Source: Natronogracilivirga saccharolytica (GTDB taxonomy: Bacteria; Bacteroidota; Rhodothermia; Balneolales; Natronogracilivirgulaceae). Taken from it: a DNA stretch of 64,000 nucleotides. The DNA is taken from contig NZ_JAFIDN010000005.1 of assembly GCF_017921895.1 (NCBI RefSeq), positions 124,001 to 188,000 of the forward strand, read 5' to 3'. Shown one piece after another: positions 1,274 to 9,382 of this stretch (within the stretch, counting starts at the first letter, position 1; the number at the start of each line of letters is the position of its first letter). The position numbers and the translations under genes were made by a program. The notes under the pieces were generated by a model, which did not search any database, was not told the origin of the DNA, and saw nothing but the letters and a program-made list of their open reading frames with translations.

Positions 1274-3202
1274 TCAGATTATTCCGGTCTGTTTCAGGAT
1301 GTGATCCACCGCCTGTTCTGCTGACAGCCTGTCGGTGTCCACCGAAATCACATGCTTGCCCTCCGGCGCCTCATGGCCGGCATCATAGCCTGTCAGTGAT
1401 GCCATTTTGCCTTCCCTGGCTTTTCGGTACAGGCCTTTCGGATCCCGCTCCTGAAGCGTTTCCGGCGCACAATGCACATAAACCTCACTGAACCGGCCTT
1501 CGGGATGCAACCCCCTGACGGCATCGCGGTCGGCACGATATGGCGATACAAATGAACAGATAACCACATCGCCATGCTCAAAAAAAAGTCTTGCCACCTC
1601 ACCGACCCTCCTGATGTTTTCCTTCCGGTCAGCCGGAGAAAATCCGAGATCCCGGTTCAAACCGTGGCGGACCTGGTCTCCGTCAAGCAGCATGGTACGC
1701 TTGCCCTGCTCCCACAACCGCCGCTCAAGTTCCCCGGCTATGGTCGTTTTGCCTGCCCCGGATGCCCCCGTAAGCCATATCACATGTGCAGAGTGGCCAT
1801 TGCGCTGTTCCCGTTCCACCCGCGGAATATTCCACGGCTCCCAGGTCACATCGGGACTTTTCTCCTCAGGCACATCCAGTGCGGATGAGCTCGTGTTCCG
1901 TATCATTCCTGCCCCGACAGTCACATTGTCGGCGGGGTCAATCAGAATAAAACTTCCGGTGGCATTATTGAGCTTGTAAGCGTCAAAAAAGAGCGGCGTT
2001 GAAGTTTCGATGGTTACCCTGCCAATCTCATTCAGCTCCAGGCGGTCCGCATCCTCACGGTGCAGCGAATCCACATTGATGCGGTACCGGATATTTTCTA
2101 TGACCGCCTGCGTACTGCGCGATGTGTGCATCAGCACATACGGCTTGCCGGACTCCAGCGCCGCTTTGTTCATCCAGCTGACCGTAGCCTCAAATTTTGT
2201 TTTAATTTCGGGGACATTGTTTTTCCGGACAATCATGTCTCCCCTGCTGATGTCGATTTCATCCGCAGTCTGCAGCACCACCGATTCACCGGTATTAGCC
2301 GCATTGCCCGGCCCGTCGGTTGTTTCAACTCCCGTTATCCGTGTTTGTTCCTTTGAAGGCAAGATGACCACCTCCTCCCCCGCCCGGATTCTTCCGGAAA
2401 CCACACGACCCGCAAATCCACGGAAATCCTGATCCGGCCGGATCACATACTGTACCGGAAAGCGGAAGTCCTCTGAATTTTTCCGCGATCCCATGTTCAC
2501 ATGTTCAAGGTGGTGCAGAAGCGTCGGTCCCTGATACCAAGGCATCGCATCGGTACTGTTGACAATATTGTCGCCCTTCAGAGCCGACATCGGGATGAAC
2601 GTGATATCATCCACATCCAGATTATCAGCAAACTCCCTGAAATCACGGACAATCTCATCGAACCGCTGCTCTCTGTATCCCACCAGGTCCATTTTGTTTA
2701 CAGCCACTACCAGATGGGGAATCTGCAGCAATGACGAAAGAAACGCATGCCTGCGGCTTTGGGTAAGCACACCCTTGCGGGCATCGATCAGGATAATCGC
2801 CAAGTCAGCTGTGGATGCCCCGGTCACCATGTTGCGTGTATACTGTTCATGTCCGGGTGTATCGGCGATGATGAACTTCCGCTTCGGTGTTGCAAAATAG
2901 CGATAGGCCACATCGATGGTGATGCCCTGCTCCCGCTCGGCCCGGAGACCGTCGGTCAGCAACGCAAGATTGACGCGCTCCTCGCCGCGGCTTTGGGTCG
3001 TTGTCTCCAGCGCCTCCCACTGATCCTCGAAAATGGATTTGCTGTCATACAGCAGCCGGCCTATCAGCGTGCTTTTTCCGTCATCTACGCTTCCCGCAGT
3101 GGTAAAACGGAGCAGATCCATGTTGAGCCAGGCCTCGTCCACACCGGATTCGGGCTTTACCGAGGCTTGTGTTGTGTTGTTATTGAATAATTTCCTGGTC
3201 AC
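1274..3202 (-). CDS. cysNC: Bifunctional sulfate adenylyltransferase subunit 1 / adenylylsulfate kinase
   Basis: This 642-residue fusion has a CysN GTPase at the N-terminus (G1 GSVDDGKST near residue 37, DTPGHEQY, NKMD), beta-barrel domains in the middle and a CysC kinase from about residue 465 (P-loop GASGAGKTT). CysN drives APS formation by CysD using GTP hydrolysis; CysC phosphorylates APS to PAPS. It starts 66 bp after cysD, in the same direction. The kinase domain means the cell can make PAPS, even though the neighbouring reductase looks like the APS type, so PAPS may serve sulfation or both routes may be used. Confidence 0.95.
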   Translation of the reverse strand: MTRKLFNNNTTQASVKPESGVDEAWLNMDLLRFTTAGSVDDGKSTLIGRLLYDSKSIFEDQWEALETTTQSRGEERVNLALLTDGLRAEREQGITIDVAYRYFATPKRKFIIADTPGHEQYTRNMVTGASTADLAIILIDARKGVLTQSRRHAFLSSLLQIPHLVVAVNKMDLVGYREQRFDEIVRDFREFADNLDVDDITFIPMSALKGDNIVNSTDAMPWYQGPTLLHHLEHVNMGSRKNSEDFRFPVQYVIRPDQDFRGFAGRVVSGRIRAGEEVVILPSKEQTRITGVETTDGPGNAANTGESVVLQTADEIDISRGDMIVRKNNVPEIKTKFEATVSWMNKAALESGKPYVLMHTSRSTQAVIENIRYRINVDSLHREDADRLELNEIGRVTIETSTPLFFDAYKLNNATGSFILIDPADNVTVGAGMIRNTSSSALDVPEEKSPDVTWEPWNIPRVEREQRNGHSAHVIWLTGASGAGKTTIAGELERRLWEQGKRTMLLDGDQVRHGLNRDLGFSPADRKENIRRVGEVARLFFEHGDVVICSFVSPYRADRDAVRGLHPEGRFSEVYVHCAPETLQERDPKGLYRKAREGKMASLTGYDAGHEAPEGKHVISVDTDRLSAEQAVDHILKQTGII

Positions 3203-3268: not shown

Positions 3269-4225
3269 TCAGAAATATCCGAGCTTCTTGCGATCTTCCA
3301 TGGCAGCCTCGGAACGTTTGTCGTCATGCCGGTTGCCCCGCTCTGTAACCCGCGCCGCAGCCACTTCGGCAATAATCTCTTCCATGCTGGATGCCTTCGA
3401 AAGTACCGCCCCGGTGCAGGTTGCATCCCCGATAGTCCGGAACCGCACCACTTTCTCCTCGGCTTTCTCATCCGGATATTTTTCTATGAAGCGGTTATCG
3501 TCAAGCCATGTCCCGCGGCGGTTGAATACGCTGCGTTTATGTGAGAAATAGATAGATGGGATCGGGATTTTTTCCGAGGCGATATACTGCCAGACGTCCA
3601 TTTCCGTCCAGTTGCTCAGCGGAAATACCCGGAAATGCTCCCCCGGATTCTTCCTGCCGTTGAACAGGCTCCAGAGCTCGGGGCGCTGATTTTTGGGATC
3701 CCATTGCCCGAATGCATCCCGGTGAGAGAAAAAGCGTTCTTTTGCCCTGGCTTTTTCCTCATCCCGGCGGCCGCCGCCAAGGGCGCAGTCCACATTGTGC
3801 TCCTTTAATGTATCGAGCAGCGTAACGGTCTGAAGCGCGTTCCGGCTGGCTTCCGGTCCGGTTTCCTCCTTGACACGCCCCTTCCGGATACTCTCTTCCA
3901 CACTTCCGACTATCAGACGTGCATCCGTCCGTTCGACCAGCTCATCCCGGAACAGGATGGTCTCTTCAAAATTATGACCGGTGTCAATGTGTATCAGCGG
4001 GAATGGGAAGCGGGCCGGACGAAAAGCTTTTTGCGCCAGGTGCACCATCACGATGGAGTCTTTTCCACCCGAAAACATCAATGCGGGACGCTCAAATTGC
4101 GCCGCAACCTCGCGCATGATGAACACCGCCTCTTCTTCGATCATGTTCAGGTGCGATCGCCTGTTTCTGCTGCGGTGACCGTTTGTGTTCACTTTTACCT
4201 CTTTTTCCAAAGAATCCGTATTCAT
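3269..4225 (-). CDS. cysD: Sulfate adenylyltransferase subunit 2
   Basis: The 318-residue protein is the catalytic subunit of heterodimeric ATP sulfurylase and makes APS from sulfate and ATP. The PP-loop motif SGGKDS is present near residue 53, followed by HIDTGHNFEE. The C-terminal RFRTIGDATCTG segment and the Arg/Lys-rich tail are typical of CysD. The length is close to the usual 300, with about 20 extra residues at the N-terminus. It sits between a SLC13-type permease (99 bp upstream) and cysNC, forming a probable uptake-and-activation operon for sulfate. Confidence 0.96.
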   Translation of the reverse strand: MNTDSLEKEVKVNTNGHRSRNRRSHLNMIEEEAVFIMREVAAQFERPALMFSGGKDSIVMVHLAQKAFRPARFPFPLIHIDTGHNFEETILFRDELVERTDARLIVGSVEESIRKGRVKEETGPEASRNALQTVTLLDTLKEHNVDCALGGGRRDEEKARAKERFFSHRDAFGQWDPKNQRPELWSLFNGRKNPGEHFRVFPLSNWTEMDVWQYIASEKIPIPSIYFSHKRSVFNRRGTWLDDNRFIEKYPDEKAEEKVVRFRTIGDATCTGAVLSKASSMEEIIAEVAAARVTERGNRHDDKRSEAAMEDRKKLGYF

Positions 4226-4324: not shown

Positions 4325-5749
4325 TTACATCCATAAAAGTGTCACTGTTGTCAGTGTAATCGCCATGAGGATCATGGAAACCGGCAAACCCGCTTTGAAA
4401 TAGTCGGTAAACCGGTAACCGCCGGGCTTCATAACCATCAGATTGGTCTGATATCCGACCGGTGACAAAAAGCTGGCAGATGCCGCTACCGCCACAATCA
4501 CACCGACGGCCTGCGGATCTATTCCGAGAGATGCGGCTGCCGAAATCCCGATCGGAACCATCAGTACCGCAGCGGCATTGTTGGTGATCAGCTCCGTAAG
4601 CAGATTGGTCATCAAATAGATGCTGAACAGTACAAACAGAAAACCGTAACCCGATGTGACATCGATTACGGATGACGCGATTCCTTCAGCAAGACCGGTG
4701 TTTTCGATAGCTGCTCCGATGCCAAGGGCCGATGCTATGACAACCAGGACCGAAAACTGTACCGAACCGGCTACTTCCCTCAGCGGCAGGATACCCGTTG
4801 TTATCATGACAGCAGCCGCTGCCAGTACGGAAATATGAGCCGGAAGGATGCCGGAAACCGGCAATGCTATCATCATCGCAAGTATCAATGCCGTCAGCCG
4901 GGCCTTTGCCGGTGAGCTTTTTACCTTCACATCATCTTCCGGCGGTGGCAGCCTGGCAGTTTCTCGCGGAGAAAACGTGTGATGTGATGCGGTGAATCCG
5001 CCCATGACATAAACCCCGCTGGGCCAGTGCGTGCTGACACCCGGCTCAAACGTTTGAGCTGCGTTCCTTCCGGCGTAGACACCGCTTGGCGCTGATGCGC
5101 CTGCCGGCCATGCTGCTGCCGGGGCCGGCCGGTCAGGCAGAAAACGGTGTCCGATAACTGCAAACCAAAGGATGATCAGTAAAGTGGCAGGAAGGGCTAT
5201 CCAGACAAGCTGGAAAAAATGAAACGGTGCCGCACCACGCTCCAGCAGCATCCCGGATACGATAAGATTGGTGGACGTGCCAACCAGTGTGATCATACCA
5301 CCTGTAATGGCGGCATAGGACAGCGGAATCAACAGTTTCGAAACCGAAATTCCCCTTTTTTCCGCCCAGTCCTTGAGCTGTGGCGTAAGTATGGCTACCA
5401 CAGGTGTATTGTTCAGGAATGAGGAAAAGAACGATGTCGTAGTCATGATGCGAAACAGCATGCCTCCAATACCACTTTTCTCCCTCATAAGAATGTCTTC
5501 AAGCGAAGACAAAAGCCCTGATTTCCGAACACCCGCAGCAACAGCAAAAAGAGCCCCGACCGTAATGACAACCGTATGTGTGAATCCGGCCATGGCATCA
5601 GATGGTTTGATGACACCCGGAACCAGCAGTGCCAGCAATGCAGATAAAAAAAGATGCTCGGTCCGGTAACGTCCCTGCAGCAACAGCACCAATAATGCTG
5701 ATATGACCAGTATGGTCCAGATGGATTTATACTCTAAACTTTCCGGCAT
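4325..5749 (-). CDS. SLC13/DASS-family permease, probable sulfate transporter
   Basis: This 474-residue polytopic membrane protein has the two-halved SLC13/ArsB-like layout: hydrophobic helices over residues 10-205 and 285-474, with family signatures such as LNNTPVVAI and TSTNLIVSG in the first half and LITNNAAAVLM in the second. Relatives in bacteria and algae (SAC1-like) carry two TrkA_C domains in the central loop and are near 590 residues. Here the loop (about 212-290) is short, Pro/Ala/Gly-rich and contains PSGVY twice, with no recognisable TrkA_C. Its place directly upstream of cysD supports sulfate as substrate, but that is inference. Confidence 0.8.
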   Translation of the reverse strand: MPESLEYKSIWTILVISALLVLLLQGRYRTEHLFLSALLALLVPGVIKPSDAMAGFTHTVVITVGALFAVAAGVRKSGLLSSLEDILMREKSGIGGMLFRIMTTTSFFSSFLNNTPVVAILTPQLKDWAEKRGISVSKLLIPLSYAAITGGMITLVGTSTNLIVSGMLLERGAAPFHFFQLVWIALPATLLIILWFAVIGHRFLPDRPAPAAAWPAGASAPSGVYAGRNAAQTFEPGVSTHWPSGVYVMGGFTASHHTFSPRETARLPPPEDDVKVKSSPAKARLTALILAMMIALPVSGILPAHISVLAAAAVMITTGILPLREVAGSVQFSVLVVIASALGIGAAIENTGLAEGIASSVIDVTSGYGFLFVLFSIYLMTNLLTELITNNAAAVLMVPIGISAAASLGIDPQAVGVIVAVAASASFLSPVGYQTNLMVMKPGGYRFTDYFKAGLPVSMILMAITLTTVTLLWM

Positions 5750-5825: not shown

Positions 5826-5883
5826 GGCAATGTGGCATTGGTCAGACCTGCGGCAGGCTAAATGTCCGTCAGTCAGAACAAAA

Positions 5884-5916
5884 AAAAGCCTGCAACCGGG
5901 ATGGCAGCAGGCTTTT
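5884..5916 (-). terminator. Rho-independent terminator of the short unit at 5.9-6.1 kb
   Basis: Read on the minus strand, a 10-bp stem (GCAGGCTTTT at 5907-5916 with its complement at 5884-5893) ends in a run of T. It lies 26 bp after the stop of the small cysteine-rich ORF and closes a unit of about 190 nt. Confidence 0.75.
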
Positions 5917-5941
5917 GTGAAATTCGTTCTGTAATACGGAC

Positions 5942-6031
5942 TCAACACATACAACAACCACTGCCATTGATCAAAGGCTTCATACAGCACATACACATAC
6001 AGTTACTGGAGCTGGTTGATGTGGTTGTCAT
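5942..6031 (-). CDS. Possible 29-residue cysteine-rich peptide (or sRNA)
   Basis: An ATG-started ORF of 29 codons encodes a Thr/Ser-rich head and a tail with seven cysteines (pattern CxCxCC then CCxC). I do not recognise it. It lies between an excellent Bacteroidetes-type promoter (6078-6109) and a Rho-independent terminator (5884-5916), with nothing else between them, so the region is very likely transcribed as an independent short RNA. There is no clear Shine-Dalgarno sequence. The RNA can also fold: CACAT and CAACCA near the start of the ORF can pair with TGGTTG and ATGTG near its end, so a non-coding RNA is an equal alternative. Metal binding by the cysteines is speculation. Confidence 0.4.
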   Translation of the reverse strand: MTTTSTSSSNCMCMCCMKPLINGSGCCMC

Positions 6032-6077
6032 GGTTGGAAAGTGTCGTGTGATTCTACAGTTTTTTAATGTAATGTGA

Positions 6078-6109
6078 CAAATATAAAACGTCGCCGGACA
6101 TAAGTCAAA
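6078..6109 (-). promoter_or_regulatory. Bacteroidetes-type promoter for the short unit
   Basis: On the minus strand TTTGAC (6109-6104) and TATATTTG (6085-6078) are separated by 18 nt. Both match the -33 TTTG and -7 TAnnTTTG elements described for Bacteroidetes promoters. Transcription should start near 6072. Confidence 0.65.
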
Positions 6110-6158: not shown

Positions 6159-7796
6159 CTAAAACAGCCGTGCCGATCCGCCTCTCCTCGGGTCGCCGGC
6201 CCCGTGAAACCCGGACGGGCCATACATCACGGAATGAGTCCCCCCGAAAAACAGATTCGATCCGCTCCACAGCTTGTGATCAGGCCACTCCTTTACGACG
6301 CGGGCAAGCACATCCCGGTCAAATCCGTATTCCACCGACAGAAAATCTTTCTCACAGTGTATGCGCGGTCTGGTTACCGCGTCTTCGACTGACATTCCGT
6401 GATCAATGATGTTCAGCAGGACCTGCAAAATTGCGGTTCGTATTCTGTTGGAACCTCCTGAGCCAAGCGCAATGACCGATCCGTCGGGACGATTGAGTAT
6501 CGCCGGGGCCATCATGGAGGTAATGCGCGTATTTTCCGGCCATTTGTGAAATCCGTCCGGATGCAGATCCTCCTCGCCCAGCATGTTGTTCAGCATGACA
6601 CCGGATCCCGGCAATATCCGGCCGCATCCCTCCCCGTTGCTCGTGGTCAGGGCTGCCGTGTTCCCGTCGCTGTCCATAATACTGATATGTGTGGTTCCGC
6701 CATATTTTCGGGCATAATTCCGGATCTGATCCTGAAAGCGGCGCAGGTAATCGGGATCCAGGAAACCGGCATCAGGCAGATTCCGGTCTGCAAGCCTGTC
6801 CAGCCGCGCCATATCGGTCAGTTGCTGCACCCTGGCAAGATGAAGCAGGTGCCCCGGCGACCCGTATGGCATTCCCGCCATATCCACCTCTTCCATAAGC
6901 TTGAGAGCAAAGGCAATTAACGTCCCGCCGGAACTCGGTGCCGGATTGATCGCCAGCCGGCTGTTCCTGTAAGCGACTTCAAGCGGTCGGCGCCGGAAAA
7001 CTTCATAATTTTCGAGATCCTCAGCGGTTACCTGTCCCCCGAGATCTCTGCTCAGACGGGCGATACTCTGAGCCACCTCGCCACAGTAGAAAAAGTCATC
7101 CCCTTCAGCCGCCAACTCTTCCAGAAAATCGGCAAGCTCGGGTTGAAAGAGCACATCACCTTCTTCAACCAGTTTAGCCTTATTTTCAGAAGCTCCTTTA
7201 TCTTTCAGCCCGACCGCCTCATGCGTCTCACTACCAATGCCGGGTTTTCCGTTACTTCCCTTTTCCCTGTTTTCCCCGGGCTTGCCGTAAACCCGAAGTG
7301 CTTCCTCCGAAGCCCGGAACACCGGACTGACAATATCGATGATATACGACTGGAAATGATTCATGACCACGCCCTTCCTGGCCATTTCAATCGCAGGCTC
7401 GGCAAGCCGTTTCATCGGCATCGAACACAGATCCCGGTGCACCGCAAACAGGCCTTTCACCGTTCCCGGAGTGGCAAAGGCGCCCATCCCGATATGAAAC
7501 TCCTGCATGGTCTCCCCGAAATCCGCCGAAATCGGATAAAATTCGATTTCTTCCGGATTCCTGTGCCTGAGAGGCGTCTGCGTGAAAAAATCGTACAGCA
7601 TCTGGCTTCCGCCGGATGTCTGTGTAAGCAGGAAACCGCCCCCGCCGGCAGATGACAACACCGGCTCGGTTACGCAAGCTGCCAGGTGCCCGGCAACAAC
7701 AGCATCAAACGCATTTCCGCCGCTTTTCAATATTTCTCCGGCCGCCCGGATGGTCAGGTCGTGTCCTGCCGCAACTACACCCTTGCCGTCACTCAT
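6159..7796 (-). CDS. ggt: Gamma-glutamyltransferase family protein
   Basis: The protein of about 545 residues belongs to the N-terminal nucleophile hydrolases that cleave or transfer gamma-glutamyl groups, for example from glutathione. The autocleavage site and nucleophile lie at GGTTHISI, followed by NTAALTTSNGEG; the GSGGSNRIRTA motif is also present. The start is placed at ATG 7796; a TTG two codons earlier is possible. Unusually, there is no signal peptide: the family fold begins at once (GVVAAGHDLTIRAAGE), so the enzyme may be cytoplasmic. A hydrophilic Gly/Lys/Glu-rich insertion occupies about residues 175-215. The strict substrate is uncertain. Confidence 0.88.
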   Translation of the reverse strand: MSDGKGVVAAGHDLTIRAAGEILKSGGNAFDAVVAGHLAACVTEPVLSSAGGGGFLLTQTSGGSQMLYDFFTQTPLRHRNPEEIEFYPISADFGETMQEFHIGMGAFATPGTVKGLFAVHRDLCSMPMKRLAEPAIEMARKGVVMNHFQSYIIDIVSPVFRASEEALRVYGKPGENREKGSNGKPGIGSETHEAVGLKDKGASENKAKLVEEGDVLFQPELADFLEELAAEGDDFFYCGEVAQSIARLSRDLGGQVTAEDLENYEVFRRRPLEVAYRNSRLAINPAPSSGGTLIAFALKLMEEVDMAGMPYGSPGHLLHLARVQQLTDMARLDRLADRNLPDAGFLDPDYLRRFQDQIRNYARKYGGTTHISIMDSDGNTAALTTSNGEGCGRILPGSGVMLNNMLGEEDLHPDGFHKWPENTRITSMMAPAILNRPDGSVIALGSGGSNRIRTAILQVLLNIIDHGMSVEDAVTRPRIHCEKDFLSVEYGFDRDVLARVVKEWPDHKLWSGSNLFFGGTHSVMYGPSGFHGAGDPRRGGSARLF

Positions 7797-7860
7797 TTGC
7801 AAAATTCCGTTACCTGTCTGATTTAATTCTTTAAGACAGTAGATACGAAAATTTCATCTT

Positions 7861-7980
7861 ATTGCAAGAGCATCATCCGTTGCTGAAACATCATTTGCTG
7901 CAGAATCATCATCTATTGCAAAAGCATCATCTTCAGCTGCTGCAAAAGCATCATTTTCCGCTATTGCAAAAGCATCATCT
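7861..7980 (-). repeat. Tandem copies of the 3' end of the GH3/T9SS gene
   Basis: Three copies of a 24-bp unit (starting at 7915, 7939 and 7963; core TTGCAAAAGCATCAT on +) and more degenerate copies back to 7861 are seen. In the gene direction each unit repeats the final codons of the glycosidase (MMLLQ plus stop), in the same frame. It looks like slippage or unequal duplication at the end of the sorting-signal domain. Confidence 0.75.
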
Positions 7981-9382
7981 TCCGGGTGATTCGCTTGTCA
8001 CCGGTTTCAAGCCGGTAAAGATAGACCCCTGATGAAAGACCGTCGGCACGAAAATCGTAGCTGTGCATCCCCGAACCGTGTGATCCGCTGGCCAGCTGAT
8101 GTATTTTCCGTCCCTGGATGTCGTAGACGTTCAGTGTGACATGCTGCTGCCGGGAAAGCTCAAAGGTGATCCTGGTAGATGAGTTGAACGGATTGGGATA
8201 ATTACCGAGATGGAATTCATCGGGCACATCGCCTGCATCCGCAAGTTGATCCGCGGACGTCGGAAGCTGATCTTCTTTCATTTGCATGATGCGCTGCCAG
8301 GACGTCTCGATGGTGCTCCGCTCAATAGTTCCTTCATCGACCTGCTCCTCAACATAATCGACGATCTGCCGGACAAGCGACTCATCCTCATAGTAATTTC
8401 CTGTATAAAGCAGGATATCTATACCCGCGTTGATCGCCAGCCTGACCGACTCAAAGAACCCGTAATATTCCTGAATTGCCGCCATGAACATCCCGTCGGA
8501 GATAATAACCCCGTCAAACCCCATATCATCACGCAGTTTGCCGGTGAGTGTTTTTCCGGACAGCGTGGCCGGATACTCGGAATCGAAATCCGAATGGTAG
8601 AGGTGACCGGGCATGATCATCCCGGAGTACCCCTGATCAATCAGCTCCTGATACGGAACAAGCTCTTTCTCTTTCCAGGTATCGCTGATATCGGTAAAAT
8701 CTAAGTGGGAATCTTCAGTGGCGCTGCCGTGTCCCGGAAAATGCTTCAGGGCTGTAATGATATCCTTCTGGTTAAACTCGTCAATAAACCATCCCGCGTG
8801 ATCGGCAACGATATATGGATCGTCCGAAAAACTGCGGTTCAACCTTCCGATGGCCGGACTGTCCGGATTCACATTGACATCCACTACCGGTGCAAGATTG
8901 ATATTGACCCCGCCGTCACGTAGCCATCCGGACATTTCTTGCGCCTGATCCCTTGTAACCCACTCAGAATCCATCTCACCAAGCTCTTCGGGTGTATAGG
9001 TGGATGAAAATCCATTATCCTCATTCAGCCGGGCAATGCGTCCGCCCTCCTGGTCGATGGAGATAAACAGCGGCACATCCGCCTCACGCTGCAGATCGCC
9101 GGTAAGGCGGCGCAAGCTCTGCGGACTGTCAACATTGTAGGCCAGCAAAATTACCCCGCCAAGGTTCCGTTATGCGATATCCGTCTGCAGTGTTTCGGTG
9201 ACTTCGGTCCCCGAACCGAATCCCACCATCAGCATTTGTCCGATCATGGCACGCAGACCGGGGTCTTCTTGTGTGTAGTCTGATGAGGCGTTACGTTCGT
9301 TAAAGGAGATTCCGGCGTAAGCTGAAACAGTAACGAGAAGAAAAGCTGCCGTCAGCAGCATGATTTTGCAAATAAAGCGCAT
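7961..9382 (-). pseudogene. GH3 beta-N-acetylhexosaminidase-like protein with T9SS sorting domain, interrupted by an in-frame stop
   Basis: Read from ATG 9382 the frame gives a signal peptide (residues 1-24, ending SAYAG), then the GH3 N-terminus IGQMLMVGF, a TAA at 9170-9172, and in the same frame RNLGGVILLAYN and the rest of the domain. Family members carry an ordinary residue where the stop is; GAA to TAA would explain it. Downstream are DQEGGRIARL, the KHFPGHG...DSH motif and the nucleophile segment ISDGMFM. A C-terminal domain with NYPNPFN, VYDIQGRK and SGVYLYRL (last ~85 residues) is a T9SS sorting signal, so the product would be exported. NagZ-like enzymes release N-acetylglucosamine from cell-wall or chitin fragments. 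It could be a recent pseudogene, a readthrough gene or a sequencing error. Confidence 0.8.

Follow-up and report, generated by a model that had tools for sequence, protein, structure and literature searches.

A short Cys-codon ORF and the terminator that follows it probably act together (we put the likelihood at about 0.9) to attenuate transcription of the SLC13-cysD-cysNC operon for sulfate assimilation in Natronogracilivirga saccharolytica by a ribosome-mediated mechanism. This reading draws on sequence and comparison. The arrangement of its alternative pairings (1:2, 2:3 and 3:4, for regions numbered in order of transcription) is that of ribosome-mediated attenuation, with cysteine, and perhaps methionine, codons as the predicted regulatory codons. 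An earlier note on this DNA had proposed a Cys-rich micropeptide or a new small RNA; the evidence presented here favors the attenuator instead.

The leader unit and its operon

The window, a stretch of 64,000 nucleotides, holds the leader unit and the operon on its minus strand (Table 1). The promoter pair proposed in the earlier note (6109-6078) was confirmed by sequence, with TTTG at 6109-6106 and TATATTTG at 6085-6078 separated by a 20-nt spacer. The same site was also scored by a promoter scanner, as TTGACT-17-TATATT, and it is the sole TTG-N17..22-TANNTTTG match 5′ of the leader unit; the 120 nt 3′ of the unit contain no TANNTTTG motif. The TTGAC..TANNTTTG layout also occurs 5′ of several homologous leaders. 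Transcription is predicted to start at about 6072-6068, ~40 nt from the leader ATG.

Table 1. Features of the leader unit and the downstream operon in the window
Feature	Position	Strand	Basis or remark
Bacteroidota-type promoter, TTTG-N20-TATATTTG	6078..6109	minus	Consensus match, read from sequence
Leader peptide ORF, 29 codons, MTTTSTSSSNCMCMCCMKPLINGSGCCMC and stop	5942..6031	minus	ORF list; homologous Cys-cluster ORFs in relatives
Region 1, ATGACAACCAC, start codon and Thr codons	6021..6031	minus	MFE fold; pairing partners are region 2 and the bases on its 3′ side
Regulatory Cys codons of the leader ORF (predicted)	6001-5999, 5995-5993, 5989-5987, 5986-5984	minus	Three more Cys codons lie past region 2
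Region 2, ATGGCAGTGG, within codons for N-GSG	5958..5967	minus	10/10 pairs with region 3; pairing kept across 41 homologs
Region 3, CTGCTGCCAT, terminator 5′ arm and loop, antiterminator partner of region 2	5901..5910	minus	Alignment and folds
Intrinsic terminator (regions 3:4), 8-U tail	5880..5916	minus	Fold and conservation in homologs
SLC13/CitMHS-type anion transporter, first gene of the operon (regulation proposed)	4325..5749	minus	Pfam PF03600
cysD (sulfate adenylyltransferase small subunit)	3269..4225	minus	Pfam PF01507
cysNC (sulfate adenylyltransferase large subunit fused to APS kinase)	1274..3202	minus	Pfam PF00009 and PF01583

The leader ORF carries seven Cys in its last 19 residues, as had been stated, and its frame stays open 5′ to an ATG at 6223, which precedes the promoter. 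Cys-rich short ORFs are not rare by themselves (six pass the same filter on both strands of the 64-kb window); the signal rises above chance because of the combination of elements and their conservation, not because of the ORF alone. The terminator that had been noticed in the sequence is well supported: its arms, AAAAGCCTGC-13 nt-GCAGGCTTTTTTTT (5916-5880), lie in a 66-nt segment that folds at -21.6 kcal/mol with a z-score of -4.1 against shuffles. For the entire leader unit, the folding energy is -54.1 kcal/mol (z -2.9), which none of 200 shuffles equaled. The long-range complementarity across the ORF that had also been reported corresponds to the hairpin formed by regions 1 and 2.

The unit is not isolated, as had been thought. 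The leader sits between a consensus-matched promoter and the operon on the same strand, and the intrinsic terminator stands 5′ of the first structural gene. Since this promoter-ORF-terminator unit reads in the same direction as SLC13-cysD-cysNC and immediately precedes it, the unit constitutes the 5′ leader of this sulfate-assimilation operon. The suggested link to sulfur metabolism stands, and the homologs likewise precede sulfur genes. Upstream of the leader unit, ggt ends at 6159.

Two further sequence features were observed in the neighborhood. At 5825-5812 (minus strand), past the attenuator and before the start codon of SLC13, stands a perfect palindrome, GGGGTTGCAACCCC, followed by ACCCTTTTGT; judging from its sequence, it may be another, weak element of a terminator-like or processing kind. 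Imperfect repeats of TTGCAAAAGCATCATC occupy 7860-7990, just upstream of ggt.

Alternative RNA pairings and the proposed mechanism

Region 2, the part of the leader ORF that encodes GSG (GGYAGTGG), is complementary to region 3, which comprises the terminator's 5′ arm and loop. The resulting antiterminator (2:3) and the terminator (3:4) both use region 3 and are mutually exclusive. Across 41 sequences, 308 of 328 cells are paired between regions 2 and 3 in a covariance-model alignment fitted to the terminator only. Pairing reaches 95% in alignment A3 (all 42 rows), compared to 30-60% when the regions are slid by 1-3 columns. In 37 of 39 leaders, regions 2 and 3 give a best contiguous helix of 8-14 pairs; in G089 and G029 it has six, and in G093 it was found at another place. 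The pair adjoining the helix covaries (AU 19, UA 5, CG 3), and with this pair included the covariation score was reached by none of 500 shuffles. Owing to the small variation in region 2, the covariation signal of the core eight pairs alone is weak, with 8-146 of 500 in the shuffle controls. Two loci carry different yet complementary versions of regions 2 and 3, namely GGAGAGTGT/ACGCTCTCC in L147 and GATAGCGGG/CCCGCTATC in L178.

Region 2 encodes GSG in most leaders, KVVE or TVVD in four (G085, G087, G088 and G041), and is read as AAV in a second copy from the same genome (see below). As the reading frame shifts while the pairing is kept, it is the RNA pairing rather than the peptide that is conserved there. 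This bears on the possibility that the ORF is a small gene of its own for a functional Cys-rich micropeptide that binds metals or thiols, which we regard as very unlikely. Seven Cys in 29 codons, and the conservation of CMCC and GSGCC in the nearest family, would suit such a peptide; however, the Cys ORF lies directly before sulfur genes with a terminator at a near-fixed distance, many leaders of the other family have lost the C-terminal Cys, and related leaders before trpE have WWW. Even the N-terminal MTTT is accounted for by pairing with region 2.

A second predicted partner of region 2 is the beginning of the ORF or the bases that precede it; the resulting hairpin (1:2) encloses the Cys codons. 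Equivalent hairpins are predicted in nearly all homologous leaders; the corresponding segments have a mean z of -1.8, with z below -1.65 in 22 of 39. The truncated 1:2 segment of the window itself (z 0.14) is no better than shuffles, in contrast to the full unit. Many leaders of both families also keep a Pro codon (as MP or KP; 5977-5975 in the window) that follows the Cys/Met cluster and falls outside the Cys codons and regions 2-4.

We infer that the leader is translated, that ribosomes stall on it in response to the supply of charged tRNA, and that the operon is regulated in this way. Transcription would begin near 6070, and the 29-codon ORF would be translated while it is being made. When Cys-tRNA is sufficient, the ribosome would clear the Cys codons, reach the stop codon and cover region 2, so that region 3 would pair with region 4 and transcription would terminate at 5880. 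When charged Cys-tRNA, and possibly Met-tRNA, is short, the ribosome would stall in the CMCMCC cluster and displace region 1; the freed region 2 would then pair with region 3 as the antiterminator, and the polymerase would continue into the SLC13-cysD-cysNC operon. If the leader were not translated, hairpin 1:2 would occupy region 2 and the terminator would form.

The measured distances fit attenuation. The last Cys codon before region 2 lies 7-17 nt from it, and in seven leaders 8-16 nt separate the end of region 2 from the stop codon. At these distances, a ribosome stalled in the Cys cluster would leave region 2 free, and one that has reached the stop codon would cover it. In leaders with only 7-8 nt before region 2, stalling would be needed at an earlier Cys. 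Folds of the stalled state before region 4 exists give the 2:3 helix at -18 to -28 kcal/mol. The terminator alone folds at -18 to -26 kcal/mol and wins once region 4 is present in six of the seven leaders tested; in the RNA of the window, too, it is then the stable state. Because the terminator is stable once region 4 has been made, antitermination would have to be kinetic and co-transcriptional, as in trp.

Homologous leaders in Balneolales

At cysD loci of the same family, a short ORF was found at the equivalent place (MTTTTAVHSCNFCMCCAMPVPSGSGCCMN, MTTTFSNTCFCQCMCCILPQWKGSGCCMR, MNLPAITAIRYNMHTAMCMCCMMPPTEGSGCCMC and others), and the cysD of the window is 76-86% identical to those of its relatives within the family. 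Nine family homologs have the Cys cluster, G[SG]G and the operon in common, and the distance from stop codon to terminator U-run is nearly constant among family homologs at 52-55 nt. Conservation of the Cys pattern and of the RNA helices in relatives, a check proposed in the earlier note, is evident, and the covariance search suggested alongside it recovered a second copy in the same genome and further copies in Balneolales.

The covariance model (R1) was built from nine family leaders, that of the window included. In the genome of the window, it identified one further full-length copy with a strong score, a short way beyond the window at C5:122691-122804 (L017:6692-6805, plus strand), preceding cobA-cysH-cysG. 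This leader (...AKCMCCYIHLNMAAVVT, with GGCGGCGG as region 2) has no upstream ATG and probably starts at TTG, as read from its sequence. Weaker matches at C1:290744, C12:102375 and C3:240266 are confined to the 3′ part of the model and lack a Cys leader. The pattern TGYATGTGYTGY occurs at five sites in the genome; two are the attenuators and the other three lack such a Cys leader and terminator.

R1 was run on 129 Balneolales genomes, and 50 of the best matches were inspected together with their downstream genes. Forty-one lie directly upstream of sulfate- or sulfite-assimilation or rhodanese genes, with the gene sets SLC13-cysD-cysNC, cobA-cysH-cysG and rhodanese-sulfite reductase-cobA-cysH; an SLC13 gene comes after the leader in 10 of the loci inspected. 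For one of the 41, before a rhodanese gene (G019c), the ORF search gave none. Five of the 50 precede trpE-trpS-trpG-trpD, and the remaining four (G033, G039, G055 and G112) have neither a Cys nor a Trp leader and are followed by genes of no assigned kind.

This distribution also bears on the possibility that the terminated leader RNA, or its peptide, regulates other genes in trans. Such a role would be compatible with an attenuator, as termination would release an RNA of ~190 nt, and a trans role of a trp leader peptide is documented in Sinorhizobium (PMC7298713). As the explanation of the unit we consider it less probable still than a micropeptide, because conservation is concentrated in the cis elements (the Cys codons and regions 2, 3 and 4) and in operon synteny, and no sign of an independent locus was seen among the homologous loci examined. 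Control of the terminator by a metabolite-binding riboswitch (for example, for SAM) or a T-box is the least probable reading. The terminator does precede a sulfur operon, as in S-box systems, but Rfam 15 at gathering score gave only a tRNA in the window and nothing in five homologous loci, thus no riboswitch, T-box or known leader in either, and the conserved part consists of codons and alternative pairings rather than an aptamer-like domain.

Outside the order, a broader model (R2) gave no matches in a phylum-wide search of 392 genomes drawn evenly with a completeness filter of 90, and most other Bacteroidota cysD loci that were scanned lack a Cys leader plus terminator. No similar DNA was found in a phage collection. 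Cys-rich leaders with terminators were nevertheless observed in other Bacteroidota, before cysC-cysD (L037:6242-6316 and L084:6147-6221) and before genes for a porin-like and a substrate-binding protein (L062:382-462); from their sequences, these are possibly independent Cys attenuators.

Codon specificity and relation to known attenuators

The Cys clusters of 39 leaders, which are related to one another, contain 157 Cys, 91 Met and 73 other codons. The two unrelated Cys leaders before cysC-cysD, MSFVVCTMCCCMTLL (L037) and MNSCCTMMCCMMCCI (L084), likewise mix Cys and Met. Met-tRNA may therefore be read as well as Cys-tRNA; alternatively, the Met codons could be neutral spacers within the clusters or serve as other start sites. 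In the trpE leaders of relatives, WWW replaces the Cys cluster in the same layout, and these leaders carry the same GGCAGTGG/CCCRCTGC core and are picked up by the same model. Ahead of trpE in the window's own genome (C4, about 170 kb; locus L208, minus strand) come a leader, MKSVTVHGNNWWWSVC, and a terminator; as read from the sequence, the 5′ arm of this terminator, CCCGCTTTC, is complementary to a region 2, GAGAGCGG, past the Trp codons. Thus, given this layout before trpE in the relatives and in the genome itself, an attenuation-type mechanism appears to be in use here. That the Cys leader is a dual Cys/Met attenuator, in which the regulatory codons have been exchanged on an RNA chassis that the trp attenuator of Balneolales also uses, is a tentative suggestion that we lean against.

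The Balneolales leaders resemble attenuators of the trpL, hisL and thrL type in having a leader ORF with regulatory codons, 1:2, 2:3 and 3:4 hairpins, an intrinsic terminator and a biosynthetic operon downstream, but their codons are Cys, with many Met, and they stand before sulfate-assimilation operons. They share their RNA core with the Balneolales trp leaders, from which they differ in the Cys cluster and the downstream genes. Short ORFs with Cys codons have been predicted 5′ of cys operons in Mycobacterium and Propionibacterium, with no conserved terminator hairpin reported for the polycysteine ORFs of Mycobacterium (PMC1262725). The latter are called leaderless in the title of Canestrari et al. 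2020 (cited in PMC9094748 and PMC13236596), a study cited for cysteine-responsive attenuation in mycobacteria (PMC9094748). Compared by description, these ORFs likewise place Cys codons 5′ of Cys biosynthesis genes, whereas the Balneolales leader, set against what the title and citing papers convey, has a strong conserved terminator, an antiterminator and ~40 nt before its ATG. The uORFC-8-2 motif, reported only in Rhodobacterales upstream of cysS and proposed to act by ribosome-mediated attenuation (PMC8632094), also combines tandem Cys codons in an upstream ORF with a terminator stem and U-run. We do not claim shared descent; the Balneolales leaders precede SLC13-cysD, SiR/cobA-cysH or rhodanese genes, not cysS.

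A survey from 2010 (PMC2965389) presented a case from Firmicutes; until then, by its account, leader-peptide systems were known only from Proteobacteria and Actinobacteria. Our literature search, which left most subscription papers outside its reach, found no Cys attenuator of such a type in Bacteroidetes/Balneolota. The mechanism is classical; to judge from the searchable literature, neither the family nor its host group nor the mixed Cys/Met codons seem to have been described before.

The leader is probably a Cys-codon attenuator with a complete antiterminator and terminator, and as such would extend leader-peptide attenuation to Balneolales. It also cautions that Cys-rich “micropeptides” 5′ of sulfur genes can be leaders. 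For these organisms, whose leaders are without a match in Rfam, it offers a specific answer to how sulfate assimilation may be controlled, and one and the same RNA core is seen with Cys codons before sulfur operons and with Trp codons before trp operons.
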